Shown piece after piece: positions 48,321-60,788 of a DNA stretch of 64,000 nt. How positions within the stretch are numbered: position 1 is the stretch's first letter; every line of letters starts with the position of its first letter. The position numbers were made by a program, and so were the translations under genes. The DNA is from Alteromonas macleodii ATCC 27126 (GTDB lineage Bacteria; Pseudomonadota; Gammaproteobacteria; Enterobacterales; Alteromonadaceae). The DNA is taken from contig NC_018632.1 in NCBI RefSeq assembly GCF_000172635.2, positions 3,472,001 through 3,536,000 of the forward strand. The letters run 5' to 3'. Under the pieces are notes generated by a model that did not search any database, was not told the DNA's origin, and saw only the letters and a program-made list of their open reading frames with translations.

Positions 48321-48495
48321 GGGCTTCTCTTCACTTCATTAACAACAGCGTTTATTTTGACACAAGCACCAGATAGCTTAAACAACATAAGCCTTAGTTA
48401 ACGGCATTTAATAATGCAATAGGCAAAGAAAAATGATTTCCACCTTTTTGCATCCATTAACCATTGTTAATCGTTATTGCTATTACAAACGGATA

Positions 48496-50571
48496 ATGGA
48501 CGTAAATACGGTGACAGCAAAAACTCTGGTAACAACACTTCTCGCTAGCTCATTTTCGCTTGGTATGGGCGCTGCAATGGCGTTAGACGACCCCGAAGGT
48601 GATATTGAGCATATTCGAGTACGTAGTGACTCATCTGTAAAAGACGGAGAGTTTATCTCGGCTTCGCAGGGATGGGTGTCTGGTGACACCTTGATTGAAC
48701 GCCCAATGTTGCGCGCCGGTGAAATACTCGAATTCATCCCAGGCATGATGGTGACCCAACACAGCGGTTCGGGAAAAGCCAACCAGTACTTTTTGCGTGG
48801 ATTTAACCTAGACCATGGCACTGATTTCACGGTGAGTGTAGACGGTATGCCAGTGAACATGCGAAGCCACGGACATGGCCAAGGCTACAGTGACCTTAAC
48901 TTTATTATCCCCGAATTTATCGACAATCTAAGCTACTTCAAAGGCACCTATTATGCCAACATCGGCGATTTTTCTAGCGCTGGCGGGGCGTTCTTCAATT
49001 TAAGAGATTCACTTGAGCAAAACCAGTTGTTCTTAGGCTTAGGAGAATATGGGTTCAAGCGCGCTGTTGCATTAAATCACTTTGAAGCAGGAGAGAGCCG
49101 CGTTGTTACAGCGCTGGAATATCAAACCTATGACGGCCCGTGGACTGACGTTGACGAAGATGTAAAAAAGAAAAACGCCCATATTCGTTATATTACGCCT
49201 TTGTTAGACGGCCAACTCACCATTACAGGAATGGCCTACGATAATAGCTGGAACGGTGCTGACCAGGTACCTGAGCGCGCTATTGAAAGCGGCTTAATAG
49301 ACCGTCTTGGCTCTATCGACACCCAAGTTGGCGGTGATTCGTCTCGCTATAGTCTCTCCGCAAACTATACGAGTGATACATGGAATGCCTCACTGTATGC
49401 CATAGATACAACGCTAAGCCTTTTTTCAAATTTTACTTACTTTCTTGATAACCCAGAGACAGGCGATCAATTCGAACAGGCCGACGACCGAAAAATTTAC
49501 GGTGGTGAAATATTCACTACCCTTCCCTTGGCGCTTACGGATGGAAGCAGTATTACCTTAGGCGGCCAGTGGCGTTTCGACGATATTGAAAACGTGGGTT
49601 TGTATCGCACCCAAAACTTAACCCGCTTTGGCACTATCCGAGAAGACGAGATTAACAGCAACAGCTATGCACTTTTTGCTCAATCAAACATCGTATTAAG
49701 CGACGCACTAAGCCTGTCATTAGGTGGTCGATACGATTACTTAGATGTGGACGTTACCAGCAGTCTTGGGGCCAATTCAGGTAGCGAAAGTGACGGTTTA
49801 TTTACCCTTAAAGCAGGCTTGAAGTACGGTGTATCAGACCAACTCACCGCATTTGCCAACATTGGGCAGGGCTTTCACTCTAACGATGCGCGAGGAGCAA
49901 CAATTAGCATAGACCCGGTAAGTGGTGACGCTACCGAAGCAGCTCCCTTATTGGTAAAGAGCCTTGGCTATGAAGCGGGCGTTAACTATACCGATAATAA
50001 AACCTATAACCTGTCTGCTGCCCTGTGGCGCTTAGAGCTTGATAGCGAGCTGGTATATGTTGGTGATGCAGGCTTTACTGAAGCCAGTCGCCCCTCCGAG
50101 AGACACGGCATTGAAGTGAGTGCCTACTACTGGATAAGCCATCACCTAACAACAGACATTGAAGCTGCGTGGACCAAGGCACGATTTAGCGACAGCGTTG
50201 AAGGCGAAGGCCGTCACATTGATGGCACCGTGCCAGGTGTGGTGAGTGCAGGGCTAACCTACTATCAAAGAAGTAACCAACTAGGGTTCAGCTATACCCT
50301 ACGAGGCCGCTACTTAAGCTCTCGCACCGTAGAAAGTTTCGATGAAATTTCACCGCCATCAACATTTTTGATTAATGGTCAAATTGCCTATAGCCAGCCA
50401 ACTTGGGACGTAACACTAGAAGTACTCAATGCCCTAGACAGTGACGATCACGATATTGATTATTTTTACGCATCTAGGCTGCCCGGAGAGCCAGAGGAAG
50501 GGATTGAGGATTTGCATTATCACCCTGTAGAGCCAAGAAATGTTCGCCTTACCTTTTCAGTAAAGTATTAA
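48496..50571 (+). CDS. TonB-dependent receptor with His-rich plug motif
   Basis: Outer-membrane active transporter, about 691 residues from the ATG at 48496, which gives a clean signal peptide (TLVTTLLASSFSLGMGAAMA). An in-frame ATG at 48433 with a weak ribosome site would add 21 residues. The plug domain contains AGEILEFIPGMMVTQHSGSGKANQYFLRGF and then the unusual segments LDHGTDFTVSVDGMPV and RSHGHGQGYSDLNFI. The 22-strand barrel ends PVEPRNVRLTFSVKY with the terminal aromatic. The HGHG motif is suggestive of metal or metallophore binding, but that is inference. It precedes the ECF sigma operon by 151 bases on the same strand. Confidence 0.9.
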   Translation: MDVNTVTAKTLVTTLLASSFSLGMGAAMALDDPEGDIEHIRVRSDSSVKDGEFISASQGWVSGDTLIERPMLRAGEILEFIPGMMVTQHSGSGKANQYFLRGFNLDHGTDFTVSVDGMPVNMRSHGHGQGYSDLNFIIPEFIDNLSYFKGTYYANIGDFSSAGGAFFNLRDSLEQNQLFLGLGEYGFKRAVALNHFEAGESRVVTALEYQTYDGPWTDVDEDVKKKNAHIRYITPLLDGQLTITGMAYDNSWNGADQVPERAIESGLIDRLGSIDTQVGGDSSRYSLSANYTSDTWNASLYAIDTTLSLFSNFTYFLDNPETGDQFEQADDRKIYGGEIFTTLPLALTDGSSITLGGQWRFDDIENVGLYRTQNLTRFGTIREDEINSNSYALFAQSNIVLSDALSLSLGGRYDYLDVDVTSSLGANSGSESDGLFTLKAGLKYGVSDQLTAFANIGQGFHSNDARGATISIDPVSGDATEAAPLLVKSLGYEAGVNYTDNKTYNLSAALWRLELDSELVYVGDAGFTEASRPSERHGIEVSAYYWISHHLTTDIEAAWTKARFSDSVEGEGRHIDGTVPGVVSAGLTYYQRSNQLGFSYTLRGRYLSSRTVESFDEISPPSTFLINGQIAYSQPTWDVTLEVLNALDSDDHDIDYFYASRLPGEPEEGIEDLHYHPVEPRNVRLTFSVKY

Positions 50572-50722
50572 TACATAAACGCTTTACTGTTTGGGGTCTG
50601 TCTATTGATTAGGTAACCATTCAGGCAGTTGTATATAAAACATGCTACTTTAAGAAGTAGCCGCCAAATAGTTAGAGCAATAAACAAATGGCCGCGCTAC
50701 AACGATAAAAATAGGAGCAACA

Positions 50723-51256
50723 ATGGAACACGAAACTCTGTTTCCTCTGCTGTGTAAAACCGCAGACGGCGACAAAAAAGCGTTCGCAGAGCTTTATAAG
50801 ATAACAAGTCCACAGCTCTACGCTGTTGCTTTAAGGCTTTTGAAACGCCCTGAACTCGCTGACGAAGCCACACAAGACGCCTATATAAAAATTTGGCATA
50901 ACGCCGGTAATTATCAACGAGGCAAAGGTACGGTACTTACTTGGATGGTCAGTATAGCTCGCTATCGTGCGCTCGATTTAATCCGCTATCACAACGTAAG
51001 AAATGAAGTCGAATTAAATGATGACGCACCGTCAGGTGTGGAAACCACACAATCAATAAAGTTAGAGGCAGAGCAAGCAAAGTTGGCCTCTTGTTTAGAT
51101 GAACTTGATGGACCGCAGCGTCAGGCTATCCATTTAGCCTATGTGAATGGCATGTCGCATCAAGAGGTGGTAACTCACTTGGCGTCACCACTTGGAACCA
51201 TTAAAAGCTGGATAAGACGAGGCTTGCAAAGCTTGCAGAGGTGCCTATCACTATGA
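50723..51256 (+). CDS. ECF-type RNA polymerase sigma factor
   Basis: 177-residue group IV sigma factor. Region 2 spans about residues 18-90 (LYAVALRLLKRPELADEATQDAYIKIW and GTVLTWMVSIARYRALDLIR) and region 4 about 120-175 (LDELDGPQRQAIHLAYVNGMSHQEVVTHLASPLGTIKSWIRRGLQSL). It resembles SigK-type factors. Its stop overlaps the start of an RskA-type anti-sigma gene (ATGA), so it should be held inactive until an envelope signal frees it. Probable targets are its own operon and the DUF4331 genes downstream; the promoter motif was not identified. Confidence 0.95.
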   Translation: MEHETLFPLLCKTADGDKKAFAELYKITSPQLYAVALRLLKRPELADEATQDAYIKIWHNAGNYQRGKGTVLTWMVSIARYRALDLIRYHNVRNEVELNDDAPSGVETTQSIKLEAEQAKLASCLDELDGPQRQAIHLAYVNGMSHQEVVTHLASPLGTIKSWIRRGLQSLQRCLSL

Positions 51257-51990
51257 ATTATTTAAAAGAAGAGCGATTAAACGCCCTCGCCGCTGAGTAT
51301 GTAGTTGGAACGCTGCGCGGCAAAGCGCGTACGCGCTATCAAAAGTTAATGATGCAGTATCAGGCTGTTAGCGATGCAACCGCACAATGGGAGCAATACC
51401 TTACTGGATTTGCTGAAACCTTGCCTCCGGTGACACCACCTGACAGCGTGTGGGAGAGCATACAAGTGAAGCTTGGCCACAAGGCGGCCAATGATACAGA
51501 GTTTGTCGATCAAACGACTAACGCAAAACCAAGTAGCGACAATGTAGTTGATCTTGAAAAAGAAAAGCAGAAACGCTGGAAGAACTTATCATTCATATCC
51601 ACAGCTGCTGCATTGGTGTTAGCCGTATTGCTTTTCATGATGCAACCTGTGCCTACCCCAGAGGTTTCCCATATTGCCGTAGTCAATAATGCTGATAACA
51701 CGCCATTGTGGGTAATAGAAGTTTCTGACACGACAATGAATGTTAAGGTCACCGATGCATTTGTGGCGTTAGCAGACAAAGACTATGAGCTTTGGATGGT
51801 GCCGGCAAACGGCGAAGCACCAATTTCTCTCGGCTTGATGCCTGAAGTTAATGGCGACACGCGCGTGACACCAGATATCTTGCTAGATCAAAGTATCGCG
51901 GCGTTAGCAGTGAGCTTAGAAGCACCAGGCGGCTCGGTAACAGGCGCACCAACGGAAGTGCTATATATAGCGCCGATTGTTTCAGTGTAA
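51253..51990 (+). CDS. RskA-type anti-sigma factor
   Basis: About 245 residues from the ATG at 51253, four bases inside the sigma gene. The cytoplasmic N-terminal sigma-binding domain (RLNALAAEYVVGTLRGKARTRYQKL) is followed by a linker and one membrane helix (FISTAAALVLAVLLFMM, around residue 115). The periplasmic RskA domain comes last, with LWVIEVSDTTMNVKVTD and DYELWMVPANGEAPISLGLMP. A tail-out membrane anti-sigma of this type is usually released by regulated proteolysis. Translationally coupled to the sigma gene. Confidence 0.92.
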   Translation: MNYLKEERLNALAAEYVVGTLRGKARTRYQKLMMQYQAVSDATAQWEQYLTGFAETLPPVTPPDSVWESIQVKLGHKAANDTEFVDQTTNAKPSSDNVVDLEKEKQKRWKNLSFISTAAALVLAVLLFMMQPVPTPEVSHIAVVNNADNTPLWVIEVSDTTMNVKVTDAFVALADKDYELWMVPANGEAPISLGLMPEVNGDTRVTPDILLDQSIAALAVSLEAPGGSVTGAPTEVLYIAPIVSV

Positions 51991-52013
51991 TTTTACGCAC
52001 AAAGCAGCACACC

Positions 52014-52043
52014 AAAAGGCCACGAAACGTGGCCTTTTACTTT
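52014..52043 (+). terminator. Terminator after the anti-sigma gene
   Basis: An eleven-base perfect stem AAAAGGCCACG / CGTGGCCTTTT with an AAA loop is followed by a T-run. It separates the sigma pair from the DUF4331 operon. Confidence 0.9.
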
Positions 52044-52141
52044 TTATAAAAACTTTATTTTAATTTTTAAATATTTTTGCATCTAAGGTGAAACCTCAGT
52101 CGTTTGGTCTCTTGAACTCATAAAAAACAGAGAGACTCGAC

Positions 52142-53734
52142 ATGATCCAATTCAAACGCAAAACTTTGTCACTGGCTGTTGCCGTGACATGTGCAGCCGT
52201 AACTGCTGGCGCAATAGCGTCAAGTCACCGAGAAGCACCTAATATCACTCGCCACCCAGCGTTAGATAGCACCGACTTTTATGCTTTCAATAGCTATGAA
52301 CAAGGCCGTGAAGATTATGTGACATTCATAGCAAACTATATTCCACTGCAAGATGCTTATGGTGGCCCTAACTACTTTGCAATGGACCCGAATGCGCACT
52401 ACGCGATTCATATTGATAGTGACGGCGACGCGGTTGAAGACTTAAGCTTTGTTTTTAAGTTTAACAATATGCTTGCTGCCGATAACGAAGGTATCGCCTT
52501 GCCGATAGGCCCTGAAGGCGAGCAGAAAATGGTGAAAGTACCGCTTAAAAATGTAGGCGGTATCAGCGCAGACGATTCAAGCGCAGCAAACTTCTCAGAA
52601 ATGTACAGCCTTACTATGGTGAGTGGCGACATGCAGACAGGCACGCGCACTACTCTTACTCCCGCCATGGGCGATATGTTTAAAAAGCCGCTTGATTACA
52701 TTGGCAATAAAACCTTTACCAGTGAAGCGGAATACGCACGTTATGCTGAAAGCTTCATTTATTCGTTCAGTATCCCTGGATGCGATGACATGGCCAAAGT
52801 GTTTGTTGGTCAGCGTAAAGACCCCTTCGTTGTTAACTTGGGCAAAACATTCGACTTGGTAAATTATGTACCTGTTGAGGGCGACAGCGCACCGGGCGCA
52901 GGCGATGGTGAAGGTTTTCCTGGCGGTATAACGCAAAGTGCCATGAATGATGACTTAGCCGATAAAAACGTGACAGCGTTATCTATTGAAGTACCTAAGG
53001 CGTGTGTTACCGGTGAAGGTAATGGCGTAATTGGTAGCTGGACCACGGCAAGCTTGCCGCAAGCGCGTATCCTAAACCCAGATGCTACTTTTGCGAAACC
53101 TGAGACTAATGGTGGTGCGATGACTCAAGTGTCTCGTTTAGGTAGCCCGCTAGTTAATGAGCTTGTTATCGGTATTGGCGATAAAGACAAATTCTCTACT
53201 TCTCATCCAAGTGCAGACGGTCAATTCGCTGATTATGTAACCCACCCTTCTTTACCAGAACTACTGAACATTCTGTTTAAAGATGCAGTGAATACTACGC
53301 TGGGTACGGATATTGAGACCCTTGCGCCGACGAATTTCCCGCGTATGGACTTAGTGACAGCGTTCCTTACAGGTTTCCCAGGCGTTAACCAACAAGCAAC
53401 TGTAACAGCATCAGAAATGCTGCGCCTAAACACAGGGATCCCAGCAACGCCAGCCGAATCGCAGTCAGCATTTGGTGTTGTAGGCGATGACTTAGCAGGA
53501 TTCCCGAATGGTCGCCGCCCAGGTGATGACGTGGTTGATATTGCCCTTCGCGTAGTCATGGGCCGCTTGTGCTACCCCATCCCGGTAGCAGGTGAAGATA
53601 CAGATCTTGGCCTTTGTACACCAGAAGACGCCAGCGTAGGTAATGTACCTTTCACTGATGGTGCACCTGTAGATGCAAGCATGATTGATTCATCGTTTCC
53701 GTACCTAAAAACACCACTTGCTGGCTCTGAATAA
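52142..53734 (+). CDS. DUF4331 secreted protein
   Basis: 530-residue exported protein. A signal peptide (LSLAVAVTCAAVTAGAIA) leads into the mature start SSHREAPNITRHPALDSTDFYAF, the DUF4331 hallmark. HIDSDGDAVEDLSFVFKF is an acidic, possibly calcium-binding segment. Others are FVGQRKDPFVVNLGKTFDLVN and SIEVPKACVTG, and the C-terminal GRRPGDDVVDIALRVVMGRLC block. Four or more cysteines suggest disulfides. DUF4331 proteins have no established function. First gene of an operon with a lipoprotein, a helical-repeat protein and a HupE/UreJ permease, and presumably under the adjacent ECF sigma factor. Confidence 0.9.
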   Translation: MIQFKRKTLSLAVAVTCAAVTAGAIASSHREAPNITRHPALDSTDFYAFNSYEQGREDYVTFIANYIPLQDAYGGPNYFAMDPNAHYAIHIDSDGDAVEDLSFVFKFNNMLAADNEGIALPIGPEGEQKMVKVPLKNVGGISADDSSAANFSEMYSLTMVSGDMQTGTRTTLTPAMGDMFKKPLDYIGNKTFTSEAEYARYAESFIYSFSIPGCDDMAKVFVGQRKDPFVVNLGKTFDLVNYVPVEGDSAPGAGDGEGFPGGITQSAMNDDLADKNVTALSIEVPKACVTGEGNGVIGSWTTASLPQARILNPDATFAKPETNGGAMTQVSRLGSPLVNELVIGIGDKDKFSTSHPSADGQFADYVTHPSLPELLNILFKDAVNTTLGTDIETLAPTNFPRMDLVTAFLTGFPGVNQQATVTASEMLRLNTGIPATPAESQSAFGVVGDDLAGFPNGRRPGDDVVDIALRVVMGRLCYPIPVAGEDTDLGLCTPEDASVGNVPFTDGAPVDASMIDSSFPYLKTPLAGSE

Positions 53735-53745
53735 GGAGATCCATC

Positions 53746-54324
53746 ATGTCTATGAAGATTAGGTTATTTAACAAGAATCCAAATGCCCCCGCGTCTATGA
53801 AGTCGGCTCAAGCCCCTTTGCAGAAACATAAGTTGTGGGTCATTTCTGGATTGGTGCTAGCGCTAACTGGTTGTTTCGATAGTGATGACGATAACGATTA
53901 TCAAGCGCCAGAAGAAAATGCAGCGCCTGTAGCCGTTGATGAAATGCTAACGACACAAGCAGATATTGCGTTTGATGGCACGTTGACAGCAACCGATGCC
54001 GATGGTGATGCACTTACCTTCGGGCTTGGTGAAAACGGTACGTTAGGTAATGCAGAAGTTAATGCTGATGGCAGCTTTACCTACACACCTGACGCTCAGG
54101 TAACGGGTAGCGATAGCTTCACATTCACCGTTTCTGACGGCGTAAATCCAGAAGTTACGGCCACCGTAAGCGTTACGATTGAGGCTCAGCAGGTATCGTT
54201 CTCTAGCTATACCCGTGATGCCTTTAATCAAGCACCGACCGATGAACCTCTGCCAATTAACGGGCGCGAGTTCACCCAAGATGCTGACGACACCACGTTC
54301 GATGATTTATTGATTGGTCAATAA
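53746..54324 (+). CDS. Lipoprotein with one cadherin/Ig-like domain
   Basis: 192 residues. A long basic N-terminus precedes a hydrophobic stretch ending in the lipobox LALTGC (Cys at about residue 43), then an acidic linker (FDSDDDNDYQAPEE). One tandem-repeat-type beta-sandwich domain follows: GTLTATDADGDALTFGLGENG and GSFTYTPDAQVTGSDSFTFTVSDG are the usual repeat blocks of VCBS/cadherin-like domains. The C-terminal 45 residues are unassigned. It is 11 bases after the DUF4331 gene and likely a partner on the cell envelope. Confidence 0.8.
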   Translation: MSMKIRLFNKNPNAPASMKSAQAPLQKHKLWVISGLVLALTGCFDSDDDNDYQAPEENAAPVAVDEMLTTQADIAFDGTLTATDADGDALTFGLGENGTLGNAEVNADGSFTYTPDAQVTGSDSFTFTVSDGVNPEVTATVSVTIEAQQVSFSSYTRDAFNQAPTDEPLPINGREFTQDADDTTFDDLLIGQ

Positions 54325-54386
54325 CGAGCGGTCAGTACACAGTGTCAACCGTAAAGCCAAGGACGGCTTTTATAAAGGAAGTTCTG

Positions 54387-55457
54387 ATGAAGTTGATGAG
54401 AAGCAGTACTCTCATACTCCCTATAATGAGCGTATTGTCAGCCCTAACAGTCTGTTCGGTATCTGCTCAGTCTGAAAAACTCAATTATGATACCGTCATC
54501 GCAACGTGGCAGCCTCAACAGCTATCCATAGCAAGTATCGACGAAGCGGAAAAAATTTTAACTTCAAGTAGATACCTTCAAGCAAAAGGTGATGAGAGAG
54601 AGCGTATTGTTAGGTTCACGGACATAATGCGACAAAAATTCGATTCGTTGAACGCAGGTCAAAAAGAGCGTTTAGTTGTTTTAGAAGCTCGACTACTTCA
54701 AGGCATTCATAAGTTCGAACAAGCCAAGCAACACGTTAATAAAATAGCCCGCTTTCGCTCTCCAGCTGCACAGTTATTGTTGGCAGATATAAACGTTCAG
54801 CAAGGTAACGCTAAAAAGGCGAAAGAAAACTGTGAAAAGCTGGTAGGGCAAACAAGTTTTTTAATCGCTTTCACGTGTATGGTTAACGCTGATTTTTCAC
54901 AAAATAAAGACGTAAAATTTTTAAAAAAGCTTAGTGCTTTTGAGGCCTACACGACTACAGTGAGACCTGCGGAGCGCCAGTGGTTTTATGAAGTACTTGC
55001 AGACATGTCGCTTCAACTTGGTAACGCTGAAGCCGCGCTTGAGCATTTGTCACAGACAGAACTCGAAAAGCTACCTATAAGCGCAATGTTAGTTTGGGCC
55101 GACGCACATTTTGCGTTGAATAACTATAAGGCAGTGAGTTCTGGGTTTAGCAACTCCGTACCCGATATATTGACAGCCGACGATGGCTTGCTACTTAAAT
55201 GGGCAATTGCGGAACGAGCGCAAGGTATCGTGCGCTCTGAAGTACAAACTCAACTTGCTAAGAACATGGAAATTCGAGTATGGCGAGAAGACAGTTCTCA
55301 CGCCTCACAGGTCGCCACTTACTTTTTAGAGATTGAACCTGATTACCCACTGGCGCTTAAATTTGCCGAAATAAACTGGCAATACGCACAGTCATTGGAT
55401 GACAAAAACCTCCTAGAGCGCGCTCGACAGGCTAATGAAGTATCGACCAATGCCTAA
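54387..55457 (+). CDS. Exported helical-repeat (TPR-like) protein
   Basis: 356 residues. The ATG at 54387 follows AAAGGAAG by five bases and begins a signal peptide (LILPIMSVLSALTVCSVSA). The mature protein is all-helical, with TPR-like pairs such as ARLLQGIHKFEQAKQHVNKIARF, LLLADINVQQGNAKKAKENCEKLV and MSLQLGNAEAALEHLSQTELEKLP. Probably a periplasmic scaffold for the neighbouring DUF4331 protein and lipoprotein. An in-frame upstream ATG at 54342 lacks a ribosome site. Function unknown. Confidence 0.75.
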   Translation: MKLMRSSTLILPIMSVLSALTVCSVSAQSEKLNYDTVIATWQPQQLSIASIDEAEKILTSSRYLQAKGDERERIVRFTDIMRQKFDSLNAGQKERLVVLEARLLQGIHKFEQAKQHVNKIARFRSPAAQLLLADINVQQGNAKKAKENCEKLVGQTSFLIAFTCMVNADFSQNKDVKFLKKLSAFEAYTTTVRPAERQWFYEVLADMSLQLGNAEAALEHLSQTELEKLPISAMLVWADAHFALNNYKAVSSGFSNSVPDILTADDGLLLKWAIAERAQGIVRSEVQTQLAKNMEIRVWREDSSHASQVATYFLEIEPDYPLALKFAEINWQYAQSLDDKNLLERARQANEVSTNA

Positions 55458-55485
55458 TGTTCTCAACCCCTTCAGTAAACGAGTC

Positions 55486-56583
55486 ATGATTAAATTTATC
55501 ACATTTTTCATCTTCGCCGCCTTCAGCGTTTTCACGCATTCACACGAACTGAGTAACGGCTACTTAACGCTTAAAAACGATTCAAATAACACTTTGTCTG
55601 GCGAGCTTTTGCTAAAGCCTGAAGATATAGGACAAGCAGCAGGGCTAGATGGCAATAATGACGGTAATTTGACCTGGGGTGAAGTCAACAGAAACCACAC
55701 TATGGCGAACGACTATATCCAAAACCACCTAGTGATTCGAGATAGCGAAACGCGATGTACGGTTAGTATTGTTCCCCCTTCTATACGAGATATATCTGCA
55801 GAGTCATTACTGGTATACCCGCTGTCGGTGAATTGCGTATATGTAAACGAAGTATCGATACAATACACTGGCATAGTTAGCGATTTTCCCACCCACAAGC
55901 TCCTCACAACGGTAACGTTAAACGATCACACAAGTGTTTATGTGCTAAGTGATGAACGCTCTTTTATCACTGCTTCTGCTACAGGAAACAGCTGGATTTC
56001 GCAGTTTGGGGAAATGGTTTATCAGGGAATTTGGCACATTTTCATTGGACTAGACCATATACTGTTTTTGGTTGCTACGTTGCTCACCGTTAATCTTTAC
56101 AGGGAAAATAAGAGCTGGGTGAAAGAGCAAAGCAAAAAGCACATTATAAAAAGCACGGTGATATTGGTAAGCACGTTTACGTTAGCGCACTCGATTACAT
56201 TAACTGCCACAGCACTGGATTTTATTACGCTAGATAGCCGTATTGTTGAGCTAGGCATTGCTATATCAGTGGCTATAACTGCGCTTAACAATGTGTACCC
56301 TATCATCATGCGTTTAGGATTTATTACCTTTGGGTTCGGCCTACTCCATGGAATGGGATTTGCGAGCGTGTTTGGCGACCTTAACGCCCAGTCGGGCAGC
56401 TTGGTAATGAATGTATTCGCTTTTAATGTAGGGGTAGAGCTGGGCCAACTTGCCATAGTTACGCTGCTATTGCCCTTACTCATCTTACTTAGAAACGTAA
56501 GGTTATATTCAAAAGCCATAATGCCAATTGCATCGTCAGCAATCGCGGTAGTAGCGATTAATTGGACGCTTCAGCGTTGGTAA
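55486..56583 (+). CDS. HupE/UreJ-family membrane protein with EF-hand loop
   Basis: About 365 residues. A signal-like helix is followed by a periplasmic N-terminal domain containing the perfect EF-hand-type loop DGNNDGNLTWGE (D-x-N-x-D-G-x-L-x-x-x-E). Then come six or seven membrane helices with the His-rich HupE/UreJ motifs GIWHIFIGLDHILFL, TFTLAHSITLTATAL and FGFGLLHGMGFASVFG. Members of this family are thought to move nickel or related metals. An in-frame ATG at 55435 overlapping the upstream gene is possible, but the ATG at 55486 gives the natural signal peptide. Last gene of the DUF4331 operon. Confidence 0.85.
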   Translation: MIKFITFFIFAAFSVFTHSHELSNGYLTLKNDSNNTLSGELLLKPEDIGQAAGLDGNNDGNLTWGEVNRNHTMANDYIQNHLVIRDSETRCTVSIVPPSIRDISAESLLVYPLSVNCVYVNEVSIQYTGIVSDFPTHKLLTTVTLNDHTSVYVLSDERSFITASATGNSWISQFGEMVYQGIWHIFIGLDHILFLVATLLTVNLYRENKSWVKEQSKKHIIKSTVILVSTFTLAHSITLTATALDFITLDSRIVELGIAISVAITALNNVYPIIMRLGFITFGFGLLHGMGFASVFGDLNAQSGSLVMNVFAFNVGVELGQLAIVTLLLPLLILLRNVRLYSKAIMPIASSAIAVVAINWTLQRW

Positions 56584-57022: not shown

Positions 57023-58303
57023 TTAAAAAAGTATAGGCGCGTTTATTCGGAGCTCATCTTTGTCTAGATCGTAAGGGACTACGTGTAAAAGTAAACCTGG
57101 TTTAAATTCAAATGATGGAAGAGATTCAAGAAAATTTTCATTTTTAGGATAAATAAGCACTAGAGAGCCCTGCCCTTTGAGATACTTCTCACCGTAAGCG
57201 AATAACTGATACATATCTGATTGTGCTAGATAATATTTGTCTTTCGATGTATTAAGATTTTCGTTAATTATCTTCCACTTAGTATCAGCAATAACAGCTA
57301 TCTCACCATTGTCATAAATAGCGATATCTGGGCGCAAGTTGAACCAATTCTGTCCATTATGGCTTGTGAGTGACTCTCCTTTTATTTGGCCTTTTACTGA
57401 GAACCGACTCGGTAATAATTTGCTTAGTTTCTTCTCTACATATCGCTCAAACAAGACTTCCATAGGAAACAAAAATGATACCCCCTCCGTATTGCCCGAC
57501 ATGGTAAGCGGAGACTCGTTGAAAAGTATTAATTTGCACCAGGATTCTAAATTTCGATAGTGAGTTAGATTTCTGTCCTTCGACCAACGCTTAAAATCTT
57601 CATTGTGGTTATTTGATTTATTCATACCATCAAAGGCAAAGATAAGTTCTCTCGCTAGACGCTGATTTTGTGAACTTCTTGTCCATCTCGAAACAATATT
57701 AACAGCAGACAAAATAAGCCTGTTTTCAGCTCTATTAACAGAAAAAGTATCGTAGGAAATTTGAAAGATATGATCTCTTCCGGGCCGTTGTCGCATCTGT
57801 TTGACTGTGTTCAACCGTCCTTTCAAAAAGCTTCTTTGAGCATCAACACGTTGATATTCACTACGCAAACCTTTTTTTAGTAGAAGAGAAACCTGTGACA
57901 AAAACTGTGAGATCAGCACTTCAATTAGTGGCTGATTTACCACTTGAAGATGGGCATTATTGAATTGCTCTAGCTTTAGATTTTCAACAACTGCCAACAT
58001 TTTCAGTAGCGTTTTTCTTGAGGCCTCTATTGACGTTCGGTCACTGTAGATTTTCGGTAAAATCTCTATACGTGTACCGCACGGAGTGTCAAGTACACCG
58101 ACAAAGTTAACAACTTGCAACGCGAGCTTCTTACCCATTCGCTTTACACGAACAAGCTCTCTACCAGCTATGCTTAAGCCGTTACTCATCAACCAATTAA
58201 ACGCCGAAGTCGAGACTTCTGCATGATTAAGGTTAGTATCGTCACCGGTTTCCACCAGTAATCCATACTCTTTTACCTGAACATAGGATTTAACGTGGTT
58301 CAT
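57023..58303 (-). CDS. mcrC: McrC, nuclease subunit of McrBC type IV restriction
   Basis: 426 residues. The N-terminal domain (about 1-200) binds the McrB ring and carries KLALQVVNFVGVLDTPCGTRIEILPKIY. The C-terminal part is a PD-(D/E)xK nuclease: Asp326 in LRPDIAIYDNGE, then Asp340 and Lys342 in VIADTKWK, followed by QMYQLFAYGEKYL. All catalytic residues are present, so the enzyme looks active. The start overlaps the mcrB end by 14 bases. With McrB it should cut DNA containing modified cytosine or a related modification. Confidence 0.95.
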   Translation of the reverse strand: MNHVKSYVQVKEYGLLVETGDDTNLNHAEVSTSAFNWLMSNGLSIAGRELVRVKRMGKKLALQVVNFVGVLDTPCGTRIEILPKIYSDRTSIEASRKTLLKMLAVVENLKLEQFNNAHLQVVNQPLIEVLISQFLSQVSLLLKKGLRSEYQRVDAQRSFLKGRLNTVKQMRQRPGRDHIFQISYDTFSVNRAENRLILSAVNIVSRWTRSSQNQRLARELIFAFDGMNKSNNHNEDFKRWSKDRNLTHYRNLESWCKLILFNESPLTMSGNTEGVSFLFPMEVLFERYVEKKLSKLLPSRFSVKGQIKGESLTSHNGQNWFNLRPDIAIYDNGEIAVIADTKWKIINENLNTSKDKYYLAQSDMYQLFAYGEKYLKGQGSLVLIYPKNENFLESLPSFEFKPGLLLHVVPYDLDKDELRINAPILF

Positions 58304-60788
58304 AACACGCTATATAGGCATCTGGATTGGTTAAAGCGTAATCATTTCTTATAAATGCTTGCACTCCATTGGGTTCCCACTCACTTCCCATTAGTTCTGC
58401 AATTTCACTTGTAGAATATTTCTCGATAATGAATCTATGGTCTTTTTCAGCCTTATTACTTGGGGCTTTGAGATGATCCCCTAAAACTTGTCCAACCCGT
58501 TCCCAGTCTTCAAAGAAATACTCTTCCAATAGCGGCAAGATTTGAAGTTCAAATATTTCCCCTAACTTCTCAATAGTCGGCTCAGTAATAAGAGGAAGAA
58601 AAAAACTGTGGCCTATGGTGTGCTCTCGATCGAACAACAATTCGATTCGTTGATTAATTGCTTTAGCTAGGCGCGAAATATCAATTCCCTGAATTTTGGG
58701 GATTGATTTGAGTACCTCATAGTCAGGCATCATTTCAACAAATTCAAACCGCCGCCGAAGCGCAATGTCTACCTGAGCTAACGACTTATCAGCAGTATTC
58801 ATTGTTCCAAGTAGATAGAGGTTTGAAGGCACACTAAATGGCTTTTTGGTATACGGAAGAGTCACGGATAAAGCATCTGGTTCACCTGCTCTTTTACTCG
58901 GCTCAATCAAAGTAATTAACTCACCAAAAATGTTGGCTATATTCCCTCGATTAATTTCGTCGATAATCAGTACCCTATTGTCACTGGACACCCGATCACC
59001 AAAAGAAAGTCCATTATCAATAATATAGGCAACTAGTTGAGCCAATAAATTGCTGTAACCATTAACTAGATATTTCTCTAAGTTCGTTTCTACTTTGTCG
59101 AATAACGTCTTATTTTTTATGTCTTCTATAGTACCTTTGCCATTTTTCACCAAGTCAACGAGCTCATTAATAATACTCATTGGTAACGGTAACCGAGAGC
59201 CATTAGGTTTCTTGAACTCAATGATTTCACTACTTATCGACGTAACTGCGTAACCAGAGATGTTTGATCCAACCGCTAAACTGCCTTTTTCTTCTCTCCC
59301 GGTCAGTAAAGCCTGTAGTTTTATTAAATCTAGAGTTGGGGGCTTTAAACTATAAATAGTTTGTTGCGAGAGATTTTTACTGAATAGCTCACTTGTTGGT
59401 AGAGACGGGGAATAAACTTTTAACCATCGTACTTTTCTTAGCTGGCAATAATGACCAGTTTCATTTTCTTCGAAGTAATATTCACTAGTCACTTCAGCTA
59501 TGGCTCTAAACTTTTGGTTTCCATCTGAAACAATGACTAAATCGCCAACATTCATATGGTTTTTAAAGTAGTTGATAGAAGTTACGTTGTAATCGTAGCT
59601 TTCGTTGTCTATCGTAAAGCCAGCATCACGGTATAGTTTAGTAATCTCTTTTCTGGAATCTGCTCCCGAAAAGTCTATCGTACCGCCATAACCTAAAGCG
59701 ATATAATTATGTTCAATACAATGATCATAAACATATGCATCCTCACCTTGGGTGTTGCCTAAGGACATTTTCCAAACGTTCCGACTTGAGACATCGATAG
59801 AGAGATCACTCTCTTCAGTCACAACACGCGAGGATGCAGCATCGCACATTTGCTTAAAAATACCTTCTTCTATGTCATAGCTTATTTTGCCATTTTCATC
59901 GGTATTAGCTTTGATGCCTTCAACAAAATCTTCGTAGCTAAAGCTCTGGTGAAAAGTAACAAAATTTATTCGATTAGATTTTACAAGCTCATCAAATCGC
60001 TGTTTTAAAGCAGTTCTGTTTTTTATATTTGTGGCCCAGAACTTTGGTTCAATGATCTCAATTGCTTTGCTTATTGTGGAATAAGTTTTTCCCGTTCCTG
60101 GTGGCCCATAAAGAATTGTATTAAGCGCTGCGGAAGATTTACTTGTTTGATAATGCTTTTCGTCATCATCATCATCATCATCGTCATCGTCAAGGAGTAA
60201 CATTGCTTTATGCTGCTTATACACGTCAAAGCCATATTCGATAACGTTTTTGCTTCCACGCTCAGCCATCAGTAATCGATATGCTTCTGGAAAAGTTGCT
60301 TTGGGTTTATTACTTATCTGTCGTAACGATTCAAGTTTGAATATATTTAAAAGGGCTGGGGTTCCCTGATTTTGATAAAGAAAAGCAACTTTCCATTTGA
60401 GTGTATCCCCCAAATCAATATTATCAATACCTTCAAGATCATCTGCCCCTACTAGTCTAATAATATCGATTAATTTAGCTTTTACGTTTTCAAAAGCGTC
60501 TTCTTCTGAATTACCAAACCGGCTAACCCAAGAATAAAGCTCTCCGTGAGAGATGTGCTTCCTGTTACCTTTGGGCGGTTGTTTTCGCTTATAAATTCCA
60601 AATTTAGAAGCATCACCTCCTCTGATCGATCCTAATTCACGCGTTTTATGCTCTAACCAATAGGCAAAAGTGTCATTATTATCTACATCAATATATTCTT
60701 CTAACGTCAACTGGCTAATCTTTTCAACTGGCCAGCGCTCGAGGAATTGGTTTAGTAGGCTTTTTTGTTCTTCTAATGAAATTTCCAT
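58290..60788 (-). CDS. mcrB: McrB, GTPase subunit, with EVE-like domain inserted in the AAA+ module
   Basis: 832 residues. The N-terminal region (about 1-198) is unlike E. coli McrB's methyl-binding domain and is unassigned. A run of ten Asp (200-209) follows. The AAA+ module starts with Walker A ILYGPPGTGKT (225-235). After FHQSFSYEDFVEGIK comes an insert (about 335-470) with VWKMSLGN, YIALGYGG, NVGDLVIVSDGN and YCQLRKVRWL, matching the pattern of EVE/PUA-like modified-base readers. Walker B is VLIIDEINRGN (Asp610-Glu611), then the GTPase signature MNTADKS and the arginine-finger block IALRRRFEF. Probably the modified-base recognition arm sits inside the motor. A/T-rich compared with neighbours by eye. 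Confidence 0.93.
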   Translation of the reverse strand: MEISLEEQKSLLNQFLERWPVEKISQLTLEEYIDVDNNDTFAYWLEHKTRELGSIRGGDASKFGIYKRKQPPKGNRKHISHGELYSWVSRFGNSEEDAFENVKAKLIDIIRLVGADDLEGIDNIDLGDTLKWKVAFLYQNQGTPALLNIFKLESLRQISNKPKATFPEAYRLLMAERGSKNVIEYGFDVYKQHKAMLLLDDDDDDDDDDEKHYQTSKSSAALNTILYGPPGTGKTYSTISKAIEIIEPKFWATNIKNRTALKQRFDELVKSNRINFVTFHQSFSYEDFVEGIKANTDENGKISYDIEEGIFKQMCDAASSRVVTEESDLSIDVSSRNVWKMSLGNTQGEDAYVYDHCIEHNYIALGYGGTIDFSGADSRKEITKLYRDAGFTIDNESYDYNVTSINYFKNHMNVGDLVIVSDGNQKFRAIAEVTSEYYFEENETGHYCQLRKVRWLKVYSPSLPTSELFSKNLSQQTIYSLKPPTLDLIKLQALLTGREEKGSLAVGSNISGYAVTSISSEIIEFKKPNGSRLPLPMSIINELVDLVKNGKGTIEDIKNKTLFDKVETNLEKYLVNGYSNLLAQLVAYIIDNGLSFGDRVSSDNRVLIIDEINRGNIANIFGELITLIEPSKRAGEPDALSVTLPYTKKPFSVPSNLYLLGTMNTADKSLAQVDIALRRRFEFVEMMPDYEVLKSIPKIQGIDISRLAKAINQRIELLFDREHTIGHSFFLPLITEPTIEKLGEIFELQILPLLEEYFFEDWERVGQVLGDHLKAPSNKAEKDHRFIIEKYSTSEIAELMGSEWEPNGVQAFIRNDYALTNPDAYIACYEPR
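60162..60191 (-). repeat. GAT/GAC triplet tract in mcrB
   Basis: Ten consecutive Asp codons, seven of the first nine being GAT in sequence order with interspersed GAC, encode residues 200-209. A triplet tract like this can gain or lose units without breaking the frame. Confidence 0.85.

Follow-up and report, generated by a model that had tools for sequence, protein, structure and literature searches.

Permeases of the Ang-1-HupE/UreJ-2 type, the "anglerases", have been proposed to capture metal and take it up (Franco Cairo et al. 2025, PMC12537917). We describe a seven-gene locus that ends in a permease resembling these, found in a 64,000-nucleotide stretch of Alteromonas macleodii ATCC 27126 (NC_018632.1, positions 3,472,001 to 3,536,000; hereafter the window). 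Its genes encode, in order, a TonB-dependent outer-membrane receptor, an extracytoplasmic function (ECF) sigma factor, an RskA-type anti-sigma factor, an exported DUF4331 protein, a lipoprotein, an exported tetratricopeptide repeat (TPR)-like protein and the permease. We propose, with moderate confidence, that they form an ECF-sigma-controlled regulon of two transcription units for the capture and transport of a copper- or nickel-type metal across the envelope, with likely metal-binding proteins in each of its layers. As far as the anglerase paper was accessible, its permeases and the window protein share an exported domain that starts with histidine (by prediction in the window protein), the same fold and the PF13795 fusion. 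The paper mentions neither DUF4331 nor sigma, and its accessible parts show no lipoprotein or TPR partners, in contrast to the window system, which appears to be a multi-gene regulon.

Other described systems resemble parts of the locus. FecI/FecR cell-surface signalling likewise encodes receptor, ECF sigma factor and anti-sigma factor together, and likely shares positive control of the receptor gene. Unlike in FecI/FecR, the window receptor has no N-terminal signalling domain, only Plug and barrel, and the anti-sigma factor no FecR domain, only RskA_C (Pfam, E up to 0.01). The actinobacterial SigK/RskA pair has an RskA_C anti-sigma factor too, and SigK is the best NCBIfam model for the window sigma factor, which differs in scoring below the SigK cut-off (146.6 versus 226 bits) and in its target genes. 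The GCATCC element of the promoter pattern described below resembles the SigK -35 element. The periplasmic zinc proteins ZrgA and PA4063 have a fold like that modelled for the N-terminal domain of the window HupE protein; they are not known to be fused to a HupE permease. The kinds of parts are already known. What this locus adds is a probable regulon, its promoter pattern and a predicted N-terminal site in DUF4331.

Recurrence and a shared promoter pattern

PF14224, the DUF4331 profile, matched in 48 of 59 genomes sampled from the genus, 26 of 295 from the order, 31 of 369 from the class and 22 of 398 from the phylum. We compared 160 loci, comprising 80 neighbourhoods of up to 20 kb and 80 named loci, which are biased to near relatives because they are the best 80 of 584. 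The profile identified a DUF4331 open reading frame (ORF) in 151 of the 160, and 119 remained after near-identical copies were removed. Within eight genes of DUF4331, these non-redundant loci carry TPR (85 loci), sigma (78), HupE (78) and anti-sigma genes (65), a lipoprotein gene of at least 80 amino acids (52) and a receptor relative (16, the L260 copy being a fragment). Sigma, anti-sigma, TPR and HupE stand all together in 46 of the 119 loci and TPR with HupE in 75; 13 loci have none of the four. A scan that also catches lipoproteins below 80 amino acids found a lipobox ORF downstream of DUF4331 in 106 of 117 loci, although four or more of these ORFs look false (L107, L159, L215, L242).

The grouping recurs across Gammaproteobacteria, and parts of it are found in Alpha- and Betaproteobacteria, Sulfurovum metagenome-assembled genomes, Bacteroidota and Actinomycetota. 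A Streptomyces plasmid has the order DUF4331-TPR-NicO permease-fasciclin, Miltoncostaea has DUF4331-TPR, and in Adhaeribacter a receptor gene that shares the plug motifs of the window receptor is oriented divergently from DUF4331-TPR; eight of 31 plasmid matches were inspected, two of these eight records lacking gene annotation. The earlier note on this DNA had read a functional unit from gene order and spacing and had set a neighbourhood survey beforehand as its refuting test, should recurrence fail. The genes do recur together, across Gammaproteobacteria and partly beyond, and the promoter pattern common to the units likewise sustains the proposed unit. The receptor, which that note counted as a member, is present in the window and, with its 16 loci, is less tightly bound to the core than assumed there.

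Co-occurrence is also visible within the genus, where TPR genes are found in 38 of the 48 DUF4331 bearers and the 11 non-bearers hold one decayed remnant. HupE matches of at least 300 bits occur in 29 genomes, 27 of which are bearers. One genome (G026, locus L309) retains a decayed module, in which the HupE frame is open and the adjacent TPR remnant is interrupted by stops, and has no DUF4331 match; in another (G050), HupE adjoins a receptor gene, again without DUF4331. Receptor genes are present in 46 of the 59 genomes, six of these 46 without DUF4331.

Upstream regions of DUF4331 loci, when read, showed TGCATCC...CGT, and the pattern GCATCY-N14..19-CGTW was tested across loci. It precedes 70 of 120 DUF4331 genes versus 16 of 1277 other genes, with a spacer of 16 nt in 65 cases and 17 nt in five. 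The pattern also lies upstream of 36 of 78 sigma, 2 of 17 receptor, 1 of 66 anti-sigma and 2 of 50 lipoprotein genes, and upstream of none of 85 TPR and 76 HupE genes. The genus has 14 linked receptor genes, and all 10 that were tested carry the pattern upstream; at these loci the sigma gene behind the receptor lacks it. Among relatives without a linked receptor, it precedes the sigma gene in L170, L171, L173 and L179 and is absent there in L135, L138, L174 and L175. For unlinked receptor genes of the genus, it was found in 14 of 25 from DUF4331-bearing genomes versus none of six from others (Fisher p 0.02, relatedness not corrected); this comparison used a single 560-nt upstream region and all testable copies, leaving out the truncated G056 copy and a pattern-less second copy in G038. 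The shared pattern ties the receptor, sigma and DUF4331 genes into what is very likely one regulon, and we infer that the module's own sigma factor reads GCATCY-N16-CGTW. An initial promoter guess, GAAAC or GAAC with GTCT, which fitted one stray site besides the window and its nearest relative, gave way to this pattern.

The A. macleodii genome itself contains 18 matches versus 8 for a reversed control. Two are the window sites, two stand before the genes named next, and 13 of the other 14 overlap ORFs of at least 120 amino acids. An NHL-repeat lipoprotein gene with the pattern shortly upstream of its start (L266, C1 around 1371785) is a possible further regulon member. The pattern also stands shortly upstream of a gene start at L267, which we take to be Coq7-like. 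Elsewhere, a gene for a secreted CHRD-domain protein (L229:8498-9094) lies a few genes behind DUF4331 and has the pattern 68 nt upstream. DUF3034 genes occur near DUF4331 or near a receptor gene (L254:4625-5996, L159:6171-8260, L258:4446-5297, L291-L293), the L258 copy with a GCATCC-type pattern; the gene that mostly accompanies them is presumably truncated-globin-like.

Layout of the window locus

All seven genes are on the + strand within 48496-56583 (Pfam profile search and sequence), in the consecutive order given by the earlier note. An ECF-type promoter-like site from the own-genome pattern search (GCATCC-N16-CGTTA, 48450..48476, + strand) lies 5' of the receptor gene (48496..50571; Pfam Plug 48.8 bits, barrel 113 bits). 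The receptor subfamily is marked by the motifs QHSGSGKANQYFLRGF and SHGHGQGY; the HGHG that had been pointed out is there, and the label "His-rich" overstated it. The sigma factor (50723..51256; Sigma70_r2 and r4_2) is followed by the anti-sigma factor (51253..51990; RskA_C 63.8 bits versus a cut-off of 29.4), whose ORF extends over 51241-51990, whose ATG at 51253 overlaps the sigma stop codon and which has, by eye, a single apparent transmembrane stretch. A terminator-like hairpin of 11 pairs comes next (52014..52038, + strand) and runs into the T-rich tail ACTTTTTATA; a second promoter-like site from the same search (GCATCT-N16-CGTTT, 52079..52105, + strand) stands 5' of DUF4331.

The hairpin and this second site divide the set, as read from the DNA, into two likely transcription units, receptor-sigma-anti-sigma and DUF4331-lipoprotein-TPR-HupE, the first probably ending at the hairpin. 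A single unit for all seven genes is the less likely layout. Terminator-like sites across the whole stretch number 9 versus 8.7 in shuffles, not above chance, and this hairpin alone stands out among them, by stem length. A sigma-70 promoter scan of the whole stretch returned 4 sites versus 14 in shuffles.

The second unit opens with the DUF4331 gene (52142..53734; PF14224 496.5 bits versus 27, profile positions 1-421 of 421). The lipoprotein gene behind it (53746..54324) has the lipobox LALTGC, a Pfam Big_9 Ig-like domain and an acidic C-terminal tail, EPLPINGREF...FDDLL. When set beside the short lipoproteins found at related loci, the Big_9 domain appears as a lineage insert, and roughly one in two lipoproteins behind DUF4331 lacks the length to hold it; the "Ig-like lipoprotein" of the earlier description is accordingly a lipoprotein with Big_9 in the window, and the Ig domain is not its conserved part. 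A regular expression for the tail was dropped, having matched only 26 of 106 candidates. The exported TPR-like protein (54387..55457; profile search and alignment) has one TPR-type match, below its cut-off, in the window copy; homologues in L253, L279, L280 and L281 pass TPR cut-offs, and the alignment shows conserved His and Cys positions. The Ang-1-like domain fused to a HupE/UreJ_2 permease (55486..56583; PF13795 139.2 bits versus 24.5) completes the set. Downstream is a tRNA-Leu (56744), and just behind it, on the minus strand, a McrBC-type restriction pair adjoins the module (57023-60788; 331 bits for the McrBC family, and matches of PD-T4-1 and PDC-S02 type in the AAA partner).

Predicted metal sites

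DUF4331 was described at the outset as lacking a known function, and a literature search gave no mention of its name or accession, subscription papers being mostly outside the coverage. One search returned at least 7999 relatives at E up to 0.001, the best 120 of which share 73-99% identity with the window protein and come from several gammaproteobacterial genera. The model of the window protein is confident (pLDDT 89.8, pTM 0.91, first ten residues 76) and mixes beta and alpha; it matched no PDB entry at E 0.001, and the family alignment holds many invariant polar residues. The predicted mature protein starts with Ser-Ser-His at 52220, an amino-terminal Cu(II)- and Ni(II)-binding (ATCUN)-type end. 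N-termini predicted from the cleavage pattern in 120 ORFs are SSH in 115, ANH in one and ASH in one, with three not read by the pattern, and the third-position His is retained while neighbouring residues vary. DUF4331 may, judging from sequence, hold copper or nickel with the first three residues of the predicted mature protein. Short remote paralogues in other Proteobacteria (L064, L072, L051, L065) also have His third after the likely cleavage site, ambiguously so in L065; they were read one by one, as the first regular expression caught no short ones, and the L100 N-terminus was unreadable. Cytosolic actinobacterial DUF4331 proteins starting Met-Ser-Ser-His, which we had expected, were not found in the three examples read, all of which have leader sequences.

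A second candidate site lies in the permease. The predicted mature His1 of its Ang-1-like domain is at 55543, and the domain also has a Cys pair and the EF-hand-type loop that had been seen earlier, LDGNNDGNLTWGE, in which conservation reaches at least 90% at the first D and at the last E. The His after the predicted signal peptide does not vary across the 54 unclipped ORFs (53 distinct), and A, S or G precedes it in every one. The domain model matches the fold of 9gce, a Cu-bound structure, as well as the ZrgA/PA4063 fold. This fold match, the predicted N-terminal histidines and some of the neighbours support a metal link, in line with the acquisition or sensing of metal first suggested for the locus. 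Enzyme co-occurrence does not support nickel in particular: in the genus, neither NiSOD, NiFe hydrogenase, urease nor any of them together is associated with DUF4331, and we dropped nickel enzymes as a metal clue.

Competing explanations and a proposed route

The module is real and widely kept, is probably sigma-controlled, and most likely serves a copper/nickel-type metal. We hold with good confidence that it handles such a metal; granted this, import seems moderately favoured over detoxification. Several observations weigh against this account. Counts over related genomes are uncorrected for relatedness. Ten bearers of the genus have neither TPR nor any HupE match, eleven have TPR without a HupE match of 300 bits, and in G029 HupE occurs without other module genes, behind the same lptF/lptG-type genes as in the window, which suggests that the parts can work apart. 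The promoter pattern is missing upstream of 50 of 120 DUF4331 genes (25 of them from named Alpha- or Betaproteobacteria), 11 of 25 unlinked receptor genes of bearers and the window's own sigma gene. Ser-Ser-His lies within a nearly invariant SSHREAP block, and its conservation could reflect a need in folding. The HupE profile fails to reach 9gce by sequence search, the link being structural only. At least one nickel enzyme (NiSOD, NiFe hydrogenase or urease) is encoded by 22 of the 48 bearers and by 5 of the 11 non-bearers. Finally, the Streptomyces NicO permease has a His-rich stretch, as exporters of the NicO family do, and the bufferin and efflux neighbours considered next belong with these points.

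Excess metal in the envelope might instead free the sigma factor, in a copper (or nickel) stress module whose DUF4331 and lipoprotein would buffer metal outside the cytoplasm, whose HupE/Ang-1 protein would remove it for storage or export and whose receptor would import a chelator or needed metal. We judge this unlikely, with enough behind it to be taken seriously. Bufferin-type genes directly adjoin the module in two Acinetobacter loci, the only such neighbours in the 160, and point to copper excess rather than hunger; in the accessible part of one report, bufferins aid growth under copper stress (PMC12452194). Clusters for bufferins, ribosomally synthesized and post-translationally modified peptides (RiPPs) of the MNIO kind, are also like the module in having ECF sigma genes in one bufferin class and envelope copper binders. 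They differ in that no gene for an MNIO enzyme, a DUF2063 protein or a Cys-rich precursor is among the seven window genes (MNIO or DUF2063 genes occur in L253 and L256 only, of the 160 loci) and in that DUF4331 is a 500-residue protein. A HupE/UreJ-domain gene was the most up-regulated in Sphingobium in nickel-rich medium, where copper genes and TonB-type receptors also rose, and the same report, as far as accessible, cites E. coli expressing hupE or ureJ as accumulating nickel, which speaks for import (PMC5557971). Ten of 48 genomes retain DUF4331 although they lack both HupE and TPR, which fits a stress role, as does the lack of a tie to nickel enzymes. So does an AcrB-like resistance-nodulation-division (RND) efflux gene in 11 of the 160 loci (L188:17251-20382 and ten others), mostly on the opposite strand, and within eight genes of DUF4331 in 9 of the 119. 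AcrB-type efflux usually serves other compounds, and TonB receptors are known for uptake, not expulsion. The recurrent clusters, judged by sequence starts and with no family search of all neighbours, included none that was recognised as a metal-efflux gene.

The resemblance to SigK/RskA could also mean a response to redox or envelope stress, with DUF4331 serving as an enzyme or a structural protein of the surface and its metal-binding end, like that of the permease, being incidental. The best sigma model and the RskA_C domain fit this, and so do the fasciclin gene behind the Streptomyces module (L279:11235-11888), mycobacterial SigK being known to control fasciclin-type proteins, and the confident DUF4331 model, which has no close solved fold and whose family shows many invariant polar residues, a feature that an enzyme could show. 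Such a response leaves the recurrent HupE, TPR and receptor partners, the Cu-type fold of the HupE domain and the conserved third-position His unexplained, and we consider it improbable. Accessible literature on SigK, RskA and copper offers indirect material only (PMC10449499, in part). A system for zinc or another divalent metal, with the Ang-1-like domain working as in ZrgA and PA4063, whose fold its model also matches, we regard as very improbable.

The copper/nickel regulon that we prefer would work as follows. At the inner membrane, the ECF sigma factor would be held by the RskA-type anti-sigma factor until an envelope signal frees it. The freed sigma factor would read GCATCY-N16-CGTW before the receptor-sigma-anti-sigma unit, amplifying itself, and before the DUF4331-lipoprotein-TPR-HupE unit. 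The receptor would take a metal complex through the outer membrane, and the free N-terminal Ser-Ser-His of DUF4331 would bind Cu(II) or Ni(II), with the lipoprotein and TPR protein as putative membrane anchor and scaffold. Metal would then move to His1 of the Ang-1-like domain, which would feed the HupE pore. More tentatively, and with less than even expectation, DUF4331 may represent a widespread and so far unrecognised group of exported metalloproteins of the ATCUN kind that has its own fold, a Cu/Ni carrier and middle station of a sigma-controlled route from outer membrane to cytoplasm, in which receptor, DUF4331, lipoprotein, TPR protein and His1-permease would form one assembly line whose permease can be exchanged (HupE in Proteobacteria, NicO in Streptomyces).

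DUF4331 is a family of thousands of proteins. If the first three residues of the mature protein do bind Cu(II) or Ni(II) and its own sigma factor drives it, the newly described Ang-HupE permeases would acquire several partner proteins, and a route for copper/nickel in marine bacteria would become testable.

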